Source: Candidatus Sigynarchaeum calidifontis (GTDB taxonomy: Archaea; Asgardarchaeota; Lokiarchaeia; Sigyniarchaeales; Sigyniarchaeaceae). From it: 64,000 nt of DNA. The notes under the pieces are model-generated. The model had not been told where the DNA came from and searched no databases. It saw only the letters and a program-made list of their open reading frames with translations. Of the stretch, positions 14,309 to 21,113 are shown piece by piece. Made by a program: the position numbers and the translations under genes. The stretch spans positions 1-64,000 of the forward strand of contig JAUQYZ010000258.1 of NCBI GenBank assembly GCA_030587475.1, in the 5' to 3' direction. Positions within the stretch are counted from its first letter, which is position 1. Every line of letters starts with the position of its first letter.

Positions 14309-15778
14309 ATGCAAATGTCCGAGATTCCGCCTGGCACACCCGTGATCGTGGATATAGGAGAAGCCGCGTGCAAGATCGGCATCGCGGGAGATGTTGCACC
14401 CCGGGATCGGTTCCCTACGATCGTGGGGCGGGAGAAATACCAGTCCGTGATGGTGGACACGAGCGAGCGTGTTCGATCGGCCTACGTCGGGAACGATGCG
14501 CAGTCGATGCGTGGAGTGCTCAAGATCGTTTATCCCATGAGCCGTGGTCAGATAATGGACTGGAACGCGTTCTACGAGGTCTTGAACCACATTTTTTACA
14601 ACGTGTTGCGCCTGGACATGCGAATGTACCCCGTGATCTATTCTGAGCCGATCCTCAACCCGCCGAACCTGCGTGAGCACCTGGCCAAGGTGTTCTTCGA
14701 GACCTACCAGATGCCCGCCATCGTCATCTTCCCTTCCGCGGTCATGGCGCTCGTCAACGCGGGACTCTCGACAGGCATGGTCGTGGAGATCGGCGAGGGC
14801 ATGGCACACATCGTCCCGATAAACGACGGCGAGGTGCTCACTTATGCAGTCAACAGGTTACCCCTCGGCGGCGTTGACGTGAACGAGAACCTCAAGAACT
14901 TCCTCATGCAAGAGGGCATCAATCTCAATTACTCGGCACAAAAGGAGATCTTGCGTGATATCAAGGAAAAATTGTGCTACGTGGCGGAGGACATCAACAT
15001 CGAGTCACAGAACGCGTACAAGATGAACATCCGGCGGCCGTACACGCTCCCCGACGGGACGGTGATACAGATCGGGAACAGCCGGGTCATGGCGCCCGAG
15101 ATACTGTTCACGCCCGGAATGCTCGGCTATAACACCATGTCCATCACGCAAGCGATAATCGACTCTGTGTCCAAGGTGCCCGCGGAGATCAAGCGTGCCA
15201 TGCTCGGCAACATCGTCTTGAGCGGTGGGAGCACGAAATTTCCCGGATTCGAGAAGCGGCTCGAGAGGGAACTCGACCAGTGGATACCGCAGCTCGGCCC
15301 GCTGCAAGAATCACGGACCGTCCAAAAAGCCCTGGCCCAGTACAAGCCGCAGCTCGTGTCCATGGACGCCCCCATACAAGTTCCGGGCTTGGCCGGGGCC
15401 AGCGGCGTGGATTCTTGTCCCGAGTGCGGGCACGACATCGACACGGCCAAGGATCAGTTCTGTCCGAACTGCGGGCACCAGGTGGTCAAACAACAGATCA
15501 AGATCAAGCCCACGCAAGTTGCTACAAAGCCGGCCGACGTGTTTGGCGAGGCGTCCGAATTCAACGACCCCGATCAGCCGGTGACGACCCAATCGAGCAG
15601 CGGCATCGTCCGGATCATCTCGTCCGGCGATCGAGAGACGGCCACCTTCCGTGGCGCCTCCAAGCTCGGCTCGATGCGTGGCGTTTTCGAGTCCATCAAG
15701 GTCACGAGGGAAGCCTTCTACGCAAACCCTCAAGTGATTCATGCCAGCATTCTCAAGCAAATCTTCTCCCTCATCTAA
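14309..15778 (+). CDS. actin-family protein with a zinc-ribbon insertion
   Basis: About 489 residues. The actin fold is clear: VIVDIGEAACKIGIAGD (phosphate-1 loop), YPMSRGQIMDWN (compare PIEHGIVTNWD), EPILNPPNLREHL, GMVVEIGEGMAHIVPI (phosphate-2 region, DxG changed to EIG), NRLPLGG, and IVLSGGSTKFPGF near residue 305. In actins the next strand follows directly. Here about 100 residues intervene (about 330-432), holding a zinc ribbon CPEC...CPNC at about 370-389 in a low-complexity linker. The actin C-terminus then resumes: IVRIISSGDRETATFRGASKLGSMRGVFESIKVTREAF is recognisable in order. It is presumably an ATP-binding filament or Arp-like protein with an added binding module. The gene has its own T-run terminators. 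Confidence 0.9.
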   Translation: MQMSEIPPGTPVIVDIGEAACKIGIAGDVAPRDRFPTIVGREKYQSVMVDTSERVRSAYVGNDAQSMRGVLKIVYPMSRGQIMDWNAFYEVLNHIFYNVLRLDMRMYPVIYSEPILNPPNLREHLAKVFFETYQMPAIVIFPSAVMALVNAGLSTGMVVEIGEGMAHIVPINDGEVLTYAVNRLPLGGVDVNENLKNFLMQEGINLNYSAQKEILRDIKEKLCYVAEDINIESQNAYKMNIRRPYTLPDGTVIQIGNSRVMAPEILFTPGMLGYNTMSITQAIIDSVSKVPAEIKRAMLGNIVLSGGSTKFPGFEKRLERELDQWIPQLGPLQESRTVQKALAQYKPQLVSMDAPIQVPGLAGASGVDSCPECGHDIDTAKDQFCPNCGHQVVKQQIKIKPTQVATKPADVFGEASEFNDPDQPVTTQSSSGIVRIISSGDRETATFRGASKLGSMRGVFESIKVTREAFYANPQVIHASILKQIFSLI

Positions 15779-15872: not shown

Positions 15873-17057
15873 ATGGATCTATCACGCGTGGCCACCTTGA
15901 GAAAAGCATCGAGACGGAAGCTGCTGATCGGCGCCGGGATGTTCATGCTCGTCGCAGTGTCTATGATTTCCTCGGTTTCTGCCATTTCAAAGAAGGATGC
16001 CATTATGGGTTTCGTCAACGGCTGTTTCAACCCGACTGAAGGGTATTACGGGACGAACGACAACAGCACGGCGAAGCAAACGACGATGGAGAGCACGTTC
16101 GCGGCCATGAACATCATCAGCATTCTTGCACCCCCTTTGAGTGACCGCCTCAAGGTGGGGTCTGGAAACCTGAATGCGCCTTTACAATTCATCATAACGG
16201 CCACGCTCAATGACTCGGGCGGGTTCCGTGGCATACCAGGAACGAAGGAAACCGTCATGGACACTTACAAGGGCGTTTATTTCTCCAAGCTATGCGGCTT
16301 CAAGAATGAGACGGCGCTCATGAACTTGCACGCGCAGTTCGTGCTAAATTCGCAGAACGTGAACGGCGGGTTCGGATCGAGCCCTTCGACGAACAGTACC
16401 CCGGACATATTCAACACCTATTATGCCTTGAAGGTTCTATCGTTGACGGGGAACTTGACGAACATCAAATACAACATGACCCTCGTTCGCAATTTCACCT
16501 TGTCTTGCAGGCGTGCCAGTAATGTCTTCGCGGGGACGTGGAACTCGACCGACGTCTCGATCGCGGCCACCTACTTTGCGGTGCGCTTGTACAGGGATTT
16601 CTTGAGTTCGTGGCACGACCTCGATGGCACGACGAATGATGTAAGAGCCTTCCTCGCCAGCCACCAGGACGCCTCGGGCGGGTTCGTCGATCCAGCCGTA
16701 GGCACCGAGCCGTTGCTTTCGAGCACGTTCTACGCGGTTTCCATTTGCCGCGACTTCGTCCAGACGATCAAAATACCACTAGGCGATGACAAGACCATCA
16801 ACTGGATTCTCTCGAGGCTAAGCTATTCTGGTGGCTTCATCGAGGGGAGTTCCCCCGTGGCAACTGCCAGCATGGTGGCCACCGACTTCGCGGTGAGTGC
16901 CATCTCCCGGATACGCCCCAGCTTGTCGGACCTCACTAGTGACACGGCGTGGACGCTTTCACAAATTGCCGGCACGGTTGCAGCCGTTGTACTTGTCATC
17001 GCCATCATCGTGCTCATCTTCGTGGCGTACATCGTGAAACGGCGCAACCGGATCTGA
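15873..17057 (+). CDS. membrane-anchored extracellular prenyltransferase/squalene-cyclase-like alpha-toroid protein
   Basis: About 394 residues. A signal peptide (residues 14-37), an extracellular domain and a C-terminal membrane helix (residues 362-388) followed by KRRNRI give an outside-facing anchored protein. The body has repeats of the alpha/alpha-toroid type: NVNGGFGSSPSTNSTPDIFNT and then FLASHQDASGGFVDP, and SYSGGFIEG, each with the Gly-Gly-Phe turn seen in prenyltransferase beta subunits and squalene cyclases. Catalytic zinc ligands or the DxDD motif are not evident. Several N-x-S/T sites suggest glycosylation. Its function is unknown; it may bind peptides, glycans or lipids. Confidence 0.72.
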   Translation: MDLSRVATLRKASRRKLLIGAGMFMLVAVSMISSVSAISKKDAIMGFVNGCFNPTEGYYGTNDNSTAKQTTMESTFAAMNIISILAPPLSDRLKVGSGNLNAPLQFIITATLNDSGGFRGIPGTKETVMDTYKGVYFSKLCGFKNETALMNLHAQFVLNSQNVNGGFGSSPSTNSTPDIFNTYYALKVLSLTGNLTNIKYNMTLVRNFTLSCRRASNVFAGTWNSTDVSIAATYFAVRLYRDFLSSWHDLDGTTNDVRAFLASHQDASGGFVDPAVGTEPLLSSTFYAVSICRDFVQTIKIPLGDDKTINWILSRLSYSGGFIEGSSPVATASMVATDFAVSAISRIRPSLSDLTSDTAWTLSQIAGTVAAVVLVIAIIVLIFVAYIVKRRNRI

Positions 17058-17178: not shown

Positions 17179-18021
17179 TCATTCGGGTTTGTCCACGAAC
17201 CCGGTCTTGTTGAGGATCTTGCCATCCTTGTAATGAGGGCTACGGTGCACTTGTCCCGTGCCTTTTTCGATCTCCCGTGCCTCGTCCGCAAGTCTCGCTG
17301 CGGCCCGCATGATCTCGTGCGCGGCCGCTATCACGGGCATATATTCCTCGCGGTGCTGGAGCTTGAAGCAGCCTTCCGTGTTCAATTTTGCCACGCTCTC
17401 CGCCATCTCATGGGCTGCCATCGCCTTGGCACGTGCGTACGGATTGAGATAATTCGCTGCCGCTATTGCTTTCTCCTTTGTAACAATAAGTTGCGGGAGA
17501 ACGGGCTTCTCGTTTTTCTTAAGTGCCGTGATCACGTCTTCGATAGTGTTAACTACGAGCTTGATGATCCCGGTGAGGGCGAGTACCTTGATCAAGTCAG
17601 CGTTAAATAAAACCATCTCTGTCGGATCCAGGAACTCGCGCCGGGCGCCGATCATGGAATCCGCTTGCACGATTATGAAGCCCATGTTGCCGCGTCCGAT
17701 GATCTCGTCTTTTGCCTTCTTGCTGGGCGCGTCCGAGATGATGATGGCCGGGATGCCCGCCTCCTTGATCAAGTCACGAGCCTTCGTCGGTCCAGGTAGC
17801 GCGGCGTTCGGGCTCGACCAGAGGATTAATTTGGGTTTTTCCGCCAGAACTTTCTTCGTCGTTTCTATGCACTCTGTCTCGCCGAGTTTCGCGCCGGAGG
17901 TTGCAGCCACGACGTCTAGATCTCCCCTGTCGGCTCGCTCGTCGAGGATCATGGCAAGCAAGGGGGAGCTTCCTATGTTCCCGCACAGAATAACCCCTAT
18001 TTTGATTTTTTCTTCGCTCAT
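17179..18021 (-). CDS. mtd: F420-dependent methylenetetrahydromethanopterin dehydrogenase
   Basis: About 280 residues with full-length similarity to Mtd. The N-terminus KIGVILCGNIGSSPLLAMILDERADR and ATSGAKL are characteristic, as are the central ISDAPSKKAKDEI region and the tail CFKLQHREEYMPV. The enzyme interconverts methylene- and methenyl-H4MPT using coenzyme F420. It belongs to the methyl branch of the archaeal Wood-Ljungdahl pathway. F420 synthesis (25867-27544) and CO dehydrogenase (50578) are in the same window. No other H4MPT gene is adjacent. Confidence 0.92.
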   Translation of the reverse strand: MSEEKIKIGVILCGNIGSSPLLAMILDERADRGDLDVVAATSGAKLGETECIETTKKVLAEKPKLILWSSPNAALPGPTKARDLIKEAGIPAIIISDAPSKKAKDEIIGRGNMGFIIVQADSMIGARREFLDPTEMVLFNADLIKVLALTGIIKLVVNTIEDVITALKKNEKPVLPQLIVTKEKAIAAANYLNPYARAKAMAAHEMAESVAKLNTEGCFKLQHREEYMPVIAAAHEIMRAAARLADEAREIEKGTGQVHRSPHYKDGKILNKTGFVDKPE

Positions 18022-18878: not shown

Positions 18879-21113
18879 ATGCTTGCACTCCCAATCCTCA
18901 TCTCGGTCGTCGTCTTTGGATACTCCGCAGCGATCATCCTCGGTTATGTCTATTACTACCAAAAAACGCACGCCCAAAAACCACGTGCTCGTAAAGTGAC
19001 GATCAAGACCTTGCTGGGCAACGTGGCAGAGGCGGACAAGACGCAGTTCATCAATAAGCAGCAACAGACGATGAAAATCATCACGGAGACCAAGAAGAAG
19101 ATCTCCGAGCAGACGGCCTCGTCCACCTCGGTTCCCGAACAGATGACGAAGAAGATGCTCGATATGGGCAGCGCTCAAGAGGCAGAGCTCATCAAGGAAG
19201 GTGCCAAGCTGCTGAAGCAGATGGGATCCTCGGCAGAGCCTGTTTCGGAAGAACAGCGCAAGTCCGATATGGCTGAACTCTTGAAGGTAGCTTCTGAACT
19301 CGGGAAGATGGAGAAAGAGTCGCCTATGGAGGATGTCGAGGAGCTTTACAGTAACGTTGGTTATGGCCTCTGGATGGATACCATTACCCAAGGTCTGCGC
19401 AAGATCACTGCAGATCCCAACATCCGAAAGTATGGCGTGCTGCAAGTCGAAAAGCTGATGTCTTTCTTGCCCCGTGCCTTCGATCCCAAGGACATCCGGA
19501 ACGCGCTCCAGCTTATGAAGAAATCGAAGGAAATCGTCGATCTCGTGGAGTTGAACCCGAAGACCGTCGTGATCGCTTTCACGCAAGAAACGACCGACTT
19601 AAAGACCGCCGAGAAGGTTTTGCTCGCCGCGATCGCAAGCGAGGATGAGATGACCAAGCAGAAGGTCAAGATGCTCTTCAACTGGGGGGACGATTTCCTC
19701 GATGAGGTATGCGCGCACCTGACCGCCCTGAACATACTGCAAATCAAGGGAGACAAGCTCGTCGCAGAGGGCTTGATGACAGCGAAGGATAGGGACTACA
19801 TCAAGCAAAAGGAGGCCGCCAAGCGGGCGTCGATGATACTCGCTACACCCCGCTCGCAATTGACCACAGCACCGAAAACCGTTACAAAAACCACGGCATC
19901 CCAGCCCGCCACCACGCCAGCATTGCCCAAGCCCGCTGTCAGCCTGCCCGTCGTGAGGCCACCCTCGGCCCCCGTAGTACCTAGCGTGCCTGGCATCTCA
20001 ATTTCCCCGAAACTGCAGGTAAAGCCCGTCGTGCCGCCCGTTGTGGTTGTTCCCGCTAAGGCCACCGCTGCACCTGGCGGCGCGGTCAAGCCCCCGCCAG
20101 TGCCTGCGATCCCCAAGTTGGCCGTCCCTTCCCCTATTGCCACGGCTGCTCCTTCGCCGGATGCAGCGGCAATGCGCCCGGCCGTGAAACCGTTATCCGC
20201 AGCGAAACCCTTGCCGCCAAAGACACCAGCGTTGCCGGGATCGGCGGTGAAACCTGCTCCGGCAAGCATCATTACGCCCCTTGCCACGCCGGCGGCGCCA
20301 TCCATGGCCCCTGCCAAGCCGACGCCCCCCGTTTCCCTTCCTAAGAAGCCTTCGGTGCTCCCGCTTCCGGTAAAGCCCAAGGCCGTGCAAGCGCTGCCAA
20401 AACCCACGCCCGTGCAAGCCGGGACGGGTGCTGGCGAAGCGGCCGATGCATCCAAGCCCGCCAAGTATGTCCAGATCGGGGACATCACGCCGATCAACGA
20501 GGCTCAGCGGCGGAATGATATGGACGACATCATGAACGCGGTCATGGAATTGGAGAGGGAATCCACCTTCTCCAGCGGGAAGGAAAAACCGGACTTGCAA
20601 GTTTTCGATAAGGAAGGGAAAGCAGTCGATAACGAGAGCTTGCTGAGCCCCGGTAGGATAGCGCCAAGCGCCGATGGTGCTGAAGTCGGGAAACTCACCG
20701 AGAAAATTCTTGCGGTGTACGAGAAGCAAGAAATCGTGAACGGCGGGGTTATGCAACTGAAAAAACTCAAGGCCTTACTCGACGAGGAGGTCGGGTTTCA
20801 AGTCGATAGCGGCGAGCTCGGATCCACCCTCGAGATGCTTCGGCCGATGGGTATGATATCCAGCATCATCGACATCAAGGGCGGTGAAAAGCTGGTCATA
20901 TTCAAGAAGATCGAGCTGTCCGCGGAGGAGATCGCCGTCATCCAGCTCGCCATCAGCACGCCGATCGCCGATTTTACCAAGGATAACATCGTGAAGCTGC
21001 TCGGCGTTCCGGATGATGAAGTCCTGGGCACTCTGAAGAAGCTGCAAGAAAAGGGGATCATCCGGTTTGCCGGGAACTCGATACAAGTCCCGGGCGTGAT
21101 CCAATCGAAATAA
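18879..21113 (+). CDS. membrane-anchored protein with Pro/Ala-rich linker and C-terminal winged-helix-like domains
   Basis: About 744 residues. A single N-terminal membrane helix (residues 4-27) is followed by a charged helical region to about 330. A low-complexity stretch of roughly 200 residues, rich in Pro, Ala, Val and Lys, spans about 330-535. The C-terminal part (about 610-740) looks like two winged-helix modules, for example ILAVYEKQEIVNGGVMQLKKL and then FTKDNIVKLLGVPDDEVLGTL with KLQEKGIIRF. Residues 170-310 may form a similar HTH-like pair. The bulk should be cytosolic. The layout suggests a membrane-tethered scaffold; proline-rich tracts are known profilin ligands in Asgard archaea, but binding here is only a guess. 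Confidence 0.7.
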   Translation: MLALPILISVVVFGYSAAIILGYVYYYQKTHAQKPRARKVTIKTLLGNVAEADKTQFINKQQQTMKIITETKKKISEQTASSTSVPEQMTKKMLDMGSAQEAELIKEGAKLLKQMGSSAEPVSEEQRKSDMAELLKVASELGKMEKESPMEDVEELYSNVGYGLWMDTITQGLRKITADPNIRKYGVLQVEKLMSFLPRAFDPKDIRNALQLMKKSKEIVDLVELNPKTVVIAFTQETTDLKTAEKVLLAAIASEDEMTKQKVKMLFNWGDDFLDEVCAHLTALNILQIKGDKLVAEGLMTAKDRDYIKQKEAAKRASMILATPRSQLTTAPKTVTKTTASQPATTPALPKPAVSLPVVRPPSAPVVPSVPGISISPKLQVKPVVPPVVVVPAKATAAPGGAVKPPPVPAIPKLAVPSPIATAAPSPDAAAMRPAVKPLSAAKPLPPKTPALPGSAVKPAPASIITPLATPAAPSMAPAKPTPPVSLPKKPSVLPLPVKPKAVQALPKPTPVQAGTGAGEAADASKPAKYVQIGDITPINEAQRRNDMDDIMNAVMELERESTFSSGKEKPDLQVFDKEGKAVDNESLLSPGRIAPSADGAEVGKLTEKILAVYEKQEIVNGGVMQLKKLKALLDEEVGFQVDSGELGSTLEMLRPMGMISSIIDIKGGEKLVIFKKIELSAEEIAVIQLAISTPIADFTKDNIVKLLGVPDDEVLGTLKKLQEKGIIRFAGNSIQVPGVIQSK

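Follow-up and report, generated by a model that had tools for sequence, protein, structure and literature searches.

A zinc-ribbon actin-related protein encoded beside a toroid membrane protein gene across an order of Asgard archaea

The window analysed here, a 64,000-nucleotide stretch of contig JAUQYZ010000258.1 from Candidatus Sigynarchaeum calidifontis, encodes on its forward strand an actin-related protein with a zinc ribbon inside the actin fold (14309..15778, the whole coding sequence including the stop codon), followed directly by the gene of a predicted single-span membrane protein with an α/α toroid. The actin-related protein (ARP), hereafter zinc actin, belongs to a class that spans the window's order of Asgard archaea, and its anatomy, its distribution through the order and its pairing with the toroid gene are all solid. 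What it does is a more tentative matter: our leading proposal, which we hold at rather less than even confidence, is that zinc actin is a non-polymerising, nucleotide-binding Arp that caps the barbed ends of lokiactin filaments and links them to the toroid membrane protein.

Anatomy and predicted fold

The reading frame opens at TTG 14306, and ATG 14315 offers an alternative start to the coding sequence at 14309. The actin core (14336..15289), where the PF00022 match is placed, runs to a helix ending near actin residue 322, with mean pLDDT mostly above 90 over the core blocks of the AlphaFold model, and the protein matches PF00022 at 274.4 bits against a curated cut-off of 27. After the core come the mostly disordered linker 1 (15293..15406, model residues ∼329–366, pLDDT below 50 at 338–365), the zinc ribbon CPEC-x11-CPNC (15407..15490, residues ∼367–394), the disordered linker 2 (15491..15580, residues ∼395–424, pLDDT below 50 at 395–423), which holds an E-[FY] motif (SEFNDP), and the actin C-terminal segment (15581..15775), all on the forward strand. 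In the model of the protein alone the ribbon is suspended between the two linkers, which are long and disordered in both predicted models, and the last 65 residues close the actin fold. A sequence-only reading of this DNA had proposed an actin-family protein interrupted by a CPEC...CPNC ribbon and ending in a normal actin C-terminus; both parts of that description hold, on the PF00022 match, on the AlphaFold model and on the recurrence of this layout through the order (70 of 79 genomes). The window's protein also matches the solved ‘HC1 actin’ (PDB 9wc4) at 3.2e-81.

Alignment places the insert after actin residue 322 (yeast numbering). In F-actin models, residues 322–325 of subdomain 3 touch subdomain 4 of the subunit that follows in the same strand, and the insert sits on the barbed face, at a longitudinal filament contact.

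Both actin parts are under purifying selection, with dN/dS of 0.04–0.07 for the core when the window's protein is compared with L005 and L006, and of 0.09–0.16 for the C-terminal segment in the same comparisons (0.22 against L007). Within the window's family the ribbon is under no tighter constraint than the linkers (dN/dS 0.37 and 0.32 against L005 and L007, respectively).

Zinc ribbons and linker motif

The ribbon of the window's protein scores 23.7 bits with PF13240/PF13248, just below the cut-off of 25, while its ortholog L013 lies above the cut-offs of PF13248 and PF12773. CxxC knuckles are present in all 68 proteins that were read: four, forming two ribbons, in 64 of them and two, forming one ribbon, in the other four, which are exactly the members of the window's own family. 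The 68 come from 70 genomes with zinc actin; G092 and G128 were excluded, being cut by contig ends and, for G128, also split over two frames, and L074 (G138) was retained though a contig end cuts it as well. The single ribbon of the window's family aligns with ribbon 1 of the other members in one alignment and with ribbon 2 in another; we prefer a correspondence to ribbon 1, because the motif flanking the window's ribbon resembles that of ribbon 1. In the second linker, a glutamate followed by phenylalanine or tyrosine occurs in 67 of the 68 proteins (mean 23.4 and maximum 34 over 300 shuffles), the sole exception being the truncated L074, and this E-[FY] looks like a short binding motif.

Distribution in Asgard genomes

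We searched 227 Asgard genomes, 79 from the window's order and 148 others, with the whole protein and then with a profile of the insert and actin C-terminus. The profile search recovers the architecture in 70 of the 79 genomes, once per genome (4 of 5 in family f1, the single genome of f2, 7 of 8 in f3 and 58 of 65 in f4). The 148 other genomes hold no comparable match, their best profile value being 6.8e-11 against 1.8e-24 or better in the 70. The matches listed for these genomes are mostly to the ribbon only or the actin C-terminus only, down to ∼6e-8, and among them a few weak ones, part of them containing stops, cover the ribbon and run on into the linker. Six of the nine genomes of the order that have no zinc actin are rated 61–78% complete; it is also missing from G095 (100% complete), G131 (92%) and G159 (91%), and these absences look like losses or misbinned genomes. 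With three near-complete genomes without it, the gene is therefore not essential throughout the order.

Recurrence in 70 genomes also disposes of the concern that an assembly or gene-calling artefact has fused an actin gene with a zinc-ribbon gene, which the sequence-only reading had named as a possible refutation and which the 366 contigs of the window's assembly might encourage. The architecture is present in single-contig genomes (G087, G121 and G122) and purifying selection acts on both actin parts; we reject this explanation and give it next to no credence.

A viral origin was likewise rejected, since an alignment-based scan of viral contigs gave 87 pattern matches of which none proved a relative by tblastn. 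One scan of genome contigs returned four relatives, namely three zinc actins and one ribbon-only match in a Bacilli record. A separate observation concerns L036, whose zinc actin is 70% identical to that of the window and of Asgard type, and whose Bathyarchaeota-titled bin is probably mislabelled. Actin matches also lie inside long frames of 582 and 753 residues in G226 (L135) and of 1667 residues in G082, among others, perhaps representing other actin fusions.

Nucleotide site

Nine residues of the actin nucleotide site (D11, G13, K18, G156, G158, G182, E214, G301 and G302) are invariant in all 68 proteins, and K213 is kept in 63. Alongside this conserved core, Q137 is absent from every member, replaced by S, T or A. 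Every member also has R at H73 and has lost R183, and E takes the place of D154 in 65. H161 is found in two of the 68, including the window's protein, with W in 53. In actin, Q137 and H161 place the attacking water. The pair expected of a hydrolysing actin is thus incomplete in every member of the family, the window's protein keeping H161, and we predict that zinc actins bind nucleotide without normal turnover. All four members of the window's family also have E at S14, and together with the loss of R183 this substitution could weaken phosphate binding.

Phylogeny and filament faces

The tree, which holds 42 rows and no eukaryotic Arp, was computed with the insert cut from its 21 zinc actins; these form one clade (support 100/99) separate from lokiactins and other Asgard ARPs. 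The eukaryotic reference sequence used was a fragment of yeast actin. Branching within the clade follows the families, as expected of vertical inheritance.

To compare the two filament faces we scored identity to 16 lokiactins at contact positions taken from F-actin models. Zinc actins resemble lokiactins more at the pointed face (0.50) than at the barbed face (0.31) or over all positions (0.36), and a pointed–barbed difference of this size was reached by 3.8% of random position sets (p 0.038); the corresponding values are 0.06 in the window's family alone and 0.14 in the divergent f3 subgroup. The pattern is reversed in the controls, with pointed and barbed values of 0.33 and 0.39 for five zinc-free ARPs, 0.65 and 0.85 for three lokiactin paralogs and 0.38 and 0.66 for yeast actin. 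This asymmetry is suggestive, and would fit a subunit that adds to the barbed end of lokiactin without being added to in turn. The sequence-only reading had offered a block on polymerisation as one function of the ribbon, and the idea draws indirect support from the diverged barbed face and from the position of the insert at a longitudinal contact.

The toroid partner gene

From N- to C-terminus, the protein encoded downstream of zinc actin (15873..17057, forward strand) consists of a hydrophobic signal, an α/α toroid (Prenyltrans, PF00432, 71.8 bits), a membrane span and a short basic tail. Its hydrophobic segments fall at residues 17–35 and 369–387, and all 20 copies of the partner that were compared share an N-terminal and a C-terminal hydrophobic segment followed by a short tail, which is clearly basic in 19 (KRRNRI in the window) and less so in L042. 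On hydropathy the toroid domain is predicted to be extracellular and the tail cytosolic, because the protein combines an N-terminal signal with a C-terminal span.

The two genes are 94 bases apart in the window, and the toroid gene lies directly downstream of zinc actin in all 21 neighbourhoods compared, those of the window and 20 chosen genomes (20 by clustering, L038 by tblastn). Across the 70 genomes with zinc actin, 64 have the toroid gene next on the same strand, with a match-to-match gap of 96–389. It lies on the same contig at 0.7 and 2.2 kb in G150 and G139, respectively, and on another contig in G138 and G149, where the actin is at a contig end; G155 and G157 have zinc actin and no toroid gene. 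Both genes are present in 68 of the 79 genomes, the actin only in two, the toroid only in one (G096, at a contig edge) and neither in eight, a co-occurrence with a Fisher p of 1.5e-8 that is overstated by the relatedness of the genomes. In the two genomes with the actin only, zinc actin is followed by a gene that, read by eye, resembles a transporter of 463–464 residues (L115 in G155 and L114 in G157). Eleven loci with toroid relatives from other Asgard classes (L102–L112) gave no actin match on the stretches examined, and we reject such relatives as general actin partners.

When 19 neighbouring genes from the window were compared with 29 other neighbourhoods, only the toroid gene recurred outside the window's family, save for PIG-L matches in two; one small cluster, c10, is additionally shared in L040. 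Two ESCRT-III genes (Snf7, PF03357; 8593–9234 and 10236–10934, forward strand) lie less than 6 kb upstream of zinc actin, neither of which was matched by tblastn in those 29 stretches, and we reject an ESCRT link on that ground.

Other genes near the pair are recorded here for completeness. In the window's family the pair is followed by a methylene-H4MPT dehydrogenase gene (17179–18021, reverse strand), and in 14 other neighbourhoods the toroid gene is followed by what appears by eye to be a FolD-like gene. A 744-residue protein with an N-terminal hydrophobic segment, a long Pro/Ala-rich middle and no Pfam match is encoded at 18879–21113 (forward strand), with homologs near zinc actin in L038 and L040, of the same family. 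In 14 of 15 f4 neighbourhoods (cluster c4, L044–L057) a gene that by eye resembles a ModE/LysR-like helix-turn-helix regulator lies upstream of zinc actin.

Proposed role and alternatives

In the mechanism we propose, zinc actin would bind nucleotide without effective turnover and form no filaments of its own. Its lokiactin-like pointed face would dock on the barbed end of a lokiactin filament and so cap it, and the ribbon, with the E-[FY] linker, would connect the docked protein to the tail that the toroid membrane protein exposes in the cytosol, making zinc actin a capping anchor between the actin filament and the cell envelope. The loss of R183 and, in the window's family, the change of S14 to E slightly lower our confidence in this capping anchor, which is below even. 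Further points run against the model: the p value of the face asymmetry is modest, the window's own protein keeps H161, the ribbon of the window's family is no more constrained than the linkers, three near-complete genomes of the order lack zinc actin, the ribbon might swing away on its long linkers, leaving polymerisation possible, and G155 and G157 keep zinc actin in genomes that have no toroid gene. As to the tethering roles that the sequence-only reading had imagined for the ribbon, one to membrane partners gains support from the conserved adjacent membrane-protein gene, and one to DNA or RNA finds no specific support.

The long disordered linkers, together with D-loop hydrophobics that are present in most of the seven members compared, would also suit a second, decorated filament system, in which zinc actin polymerises with itself and the ribbon loops out to bundle or attach the filaments. 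The divergence of the barbed face, the loss of Q137 in all 68 proteins and an insert at a contact site all speak against self-polymerisation, and we think it improbable. A role like that of Arp2 or Arp3, in which zinc actin would stabilise a lokiactin nucleus or branch and the ribbon would dock an activator or partner, could account for the conserved phosphate site and the single lokiactin-like face. In Arp2/3, however, the Arps offer their barbed faces to the new filament, and here the barbed face is the diverged, insert-bearing one; nor did a lokiactin query find a second actin-family gene in the 29 neighbourhood stretches. We therefore rate a nucleator as unlikely. Similarly hard to favour is a nucleic-acid or chromatin adapter comparable to the nuclear Arps, in which the ribbons would contact DNA, RNA or a transcription partner and the actin part would serve as a nucleotide-switched scaffold. 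The ribbons do resemble that of TFIIB below threshold (15.9 and 26.8 of 29 bits) and the lost polymerisation features fit nuclear Arps, but the likeness to TFIIB says little, given how many models a short generic ribbon will match, and the gene conserved next to zinc actin is that of a membrane protein.

A doubt of another kind is whether the toroid gene has simply stayed next to that of zinc actin, with no physical link between its product and the actin. Gene order is inherited, other neighbouring genes are retained within family f4 too, and G155 and G157 manage without the toroid gene. Against this, almost nothing else is common to the neighbourhoods of the window's family and the other families, and genomes missing one gene of the pair mostly miss the other, the relatedness noted above tempering that count; mere proximity is in our judgement somewhat unlikely, though it deserves to be taken seriously.

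Returning to the capping anchor, its boldest form would be an actin–membrane link invented in Asgard archaea: a catalytically dead zinc-ribbon actin would close off the barbed ends of lokiactin and fasten them to a protein that resembles a receptor and has its toroid outside the cell. We regard this fuller version as speculative and, on balance, unlikely. If true, archaea would have an equivalent of adhesion-type links in which an actin paralog takes the place of an actin-binding protein. Zinc actin bears on the question of how the lokiactin cytoskeleton of Asgard archaea is controlled and attached to the membrane. As an order-wide paralog with a metal module at a filament contact and a membrane-protein gene beside it, it offers a concrete candidate for the anchor of filament ends.

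Comparison with known systems

‘Ca. L. ossiferum’ has four actin homologues, among which lokiactin is the most transcribed and forms filaments, and profilins and gelsolins are the named regulators of lokiactin (PMC9834061, in its available portion, where the word ‘zinc’ is not found). The accessible parts of PMC10936438, PMC12993045, PMC10989751, PMC13394414 and PMC7015854 likewise describe no zinc-ribbon actin. Neither such an actin nor this gene pair appears in the titles and abstract openings of the best-ranked papers; we thus found no published description of the class, which does not prove its absence from print. Among 106 coding sequences, the forward primer for UYP44711.1 of ‘Ca. L. ossiferum’ best fits the zinc actin of G087, with 4 mismatches and at a similar position, and the reverse primer has no clear best match. 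That this transcribed ARP gene of a cultured organism is a zinc-actin ortholog is a lead only, but through it zinc actin may be testable now.

The partner is closest, among solved structures, to the beta subunits of RabGGTase and FTase, with which it shares the α/α toroid and GG repeats (E 3e-19 for its profile against RabGGTase beta). Unlike these subunits it carries a signal at the N-terminus and, towards the C-terminus, a membrane span that leads into a short basic tail; the signal and span argue against a cytosolic prenyltransferase beta subunit. The D-x-C of the D-x-C...H zinc site of protein prenyltransferase beta subunits aligns to other residues in the partner, in a repeat register that is uncertain.

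Zinc actin itself shares with lokiactin and eukaryotic actin the actin fold, the PF00022 match and the core phosphate-site residues, and is 42–46% identical to six lokiactins. It differs from them in forming a separate clade, in the insert after residue 322, in its diverged barbed face and in the absence of Q137, H73 and usually H161. The profiles of crenactin, MamK, BeeR and syringactin (NCBIfam) match the zinc-actin core weakly, all far below their curated cut-offs, the best score of the window's protein being 36.7 of 630 bits with crenactin. Eukaryotic Arps are likewise known to carry inserts within the fold. Like other Asgard ARPs, zinc actins are divergent actin paralogs that exist beside lokiactin, whereas the five control Asgard ARPs (L136–L139 and L142) have no such insert and fall outside the zinc-actin clade.
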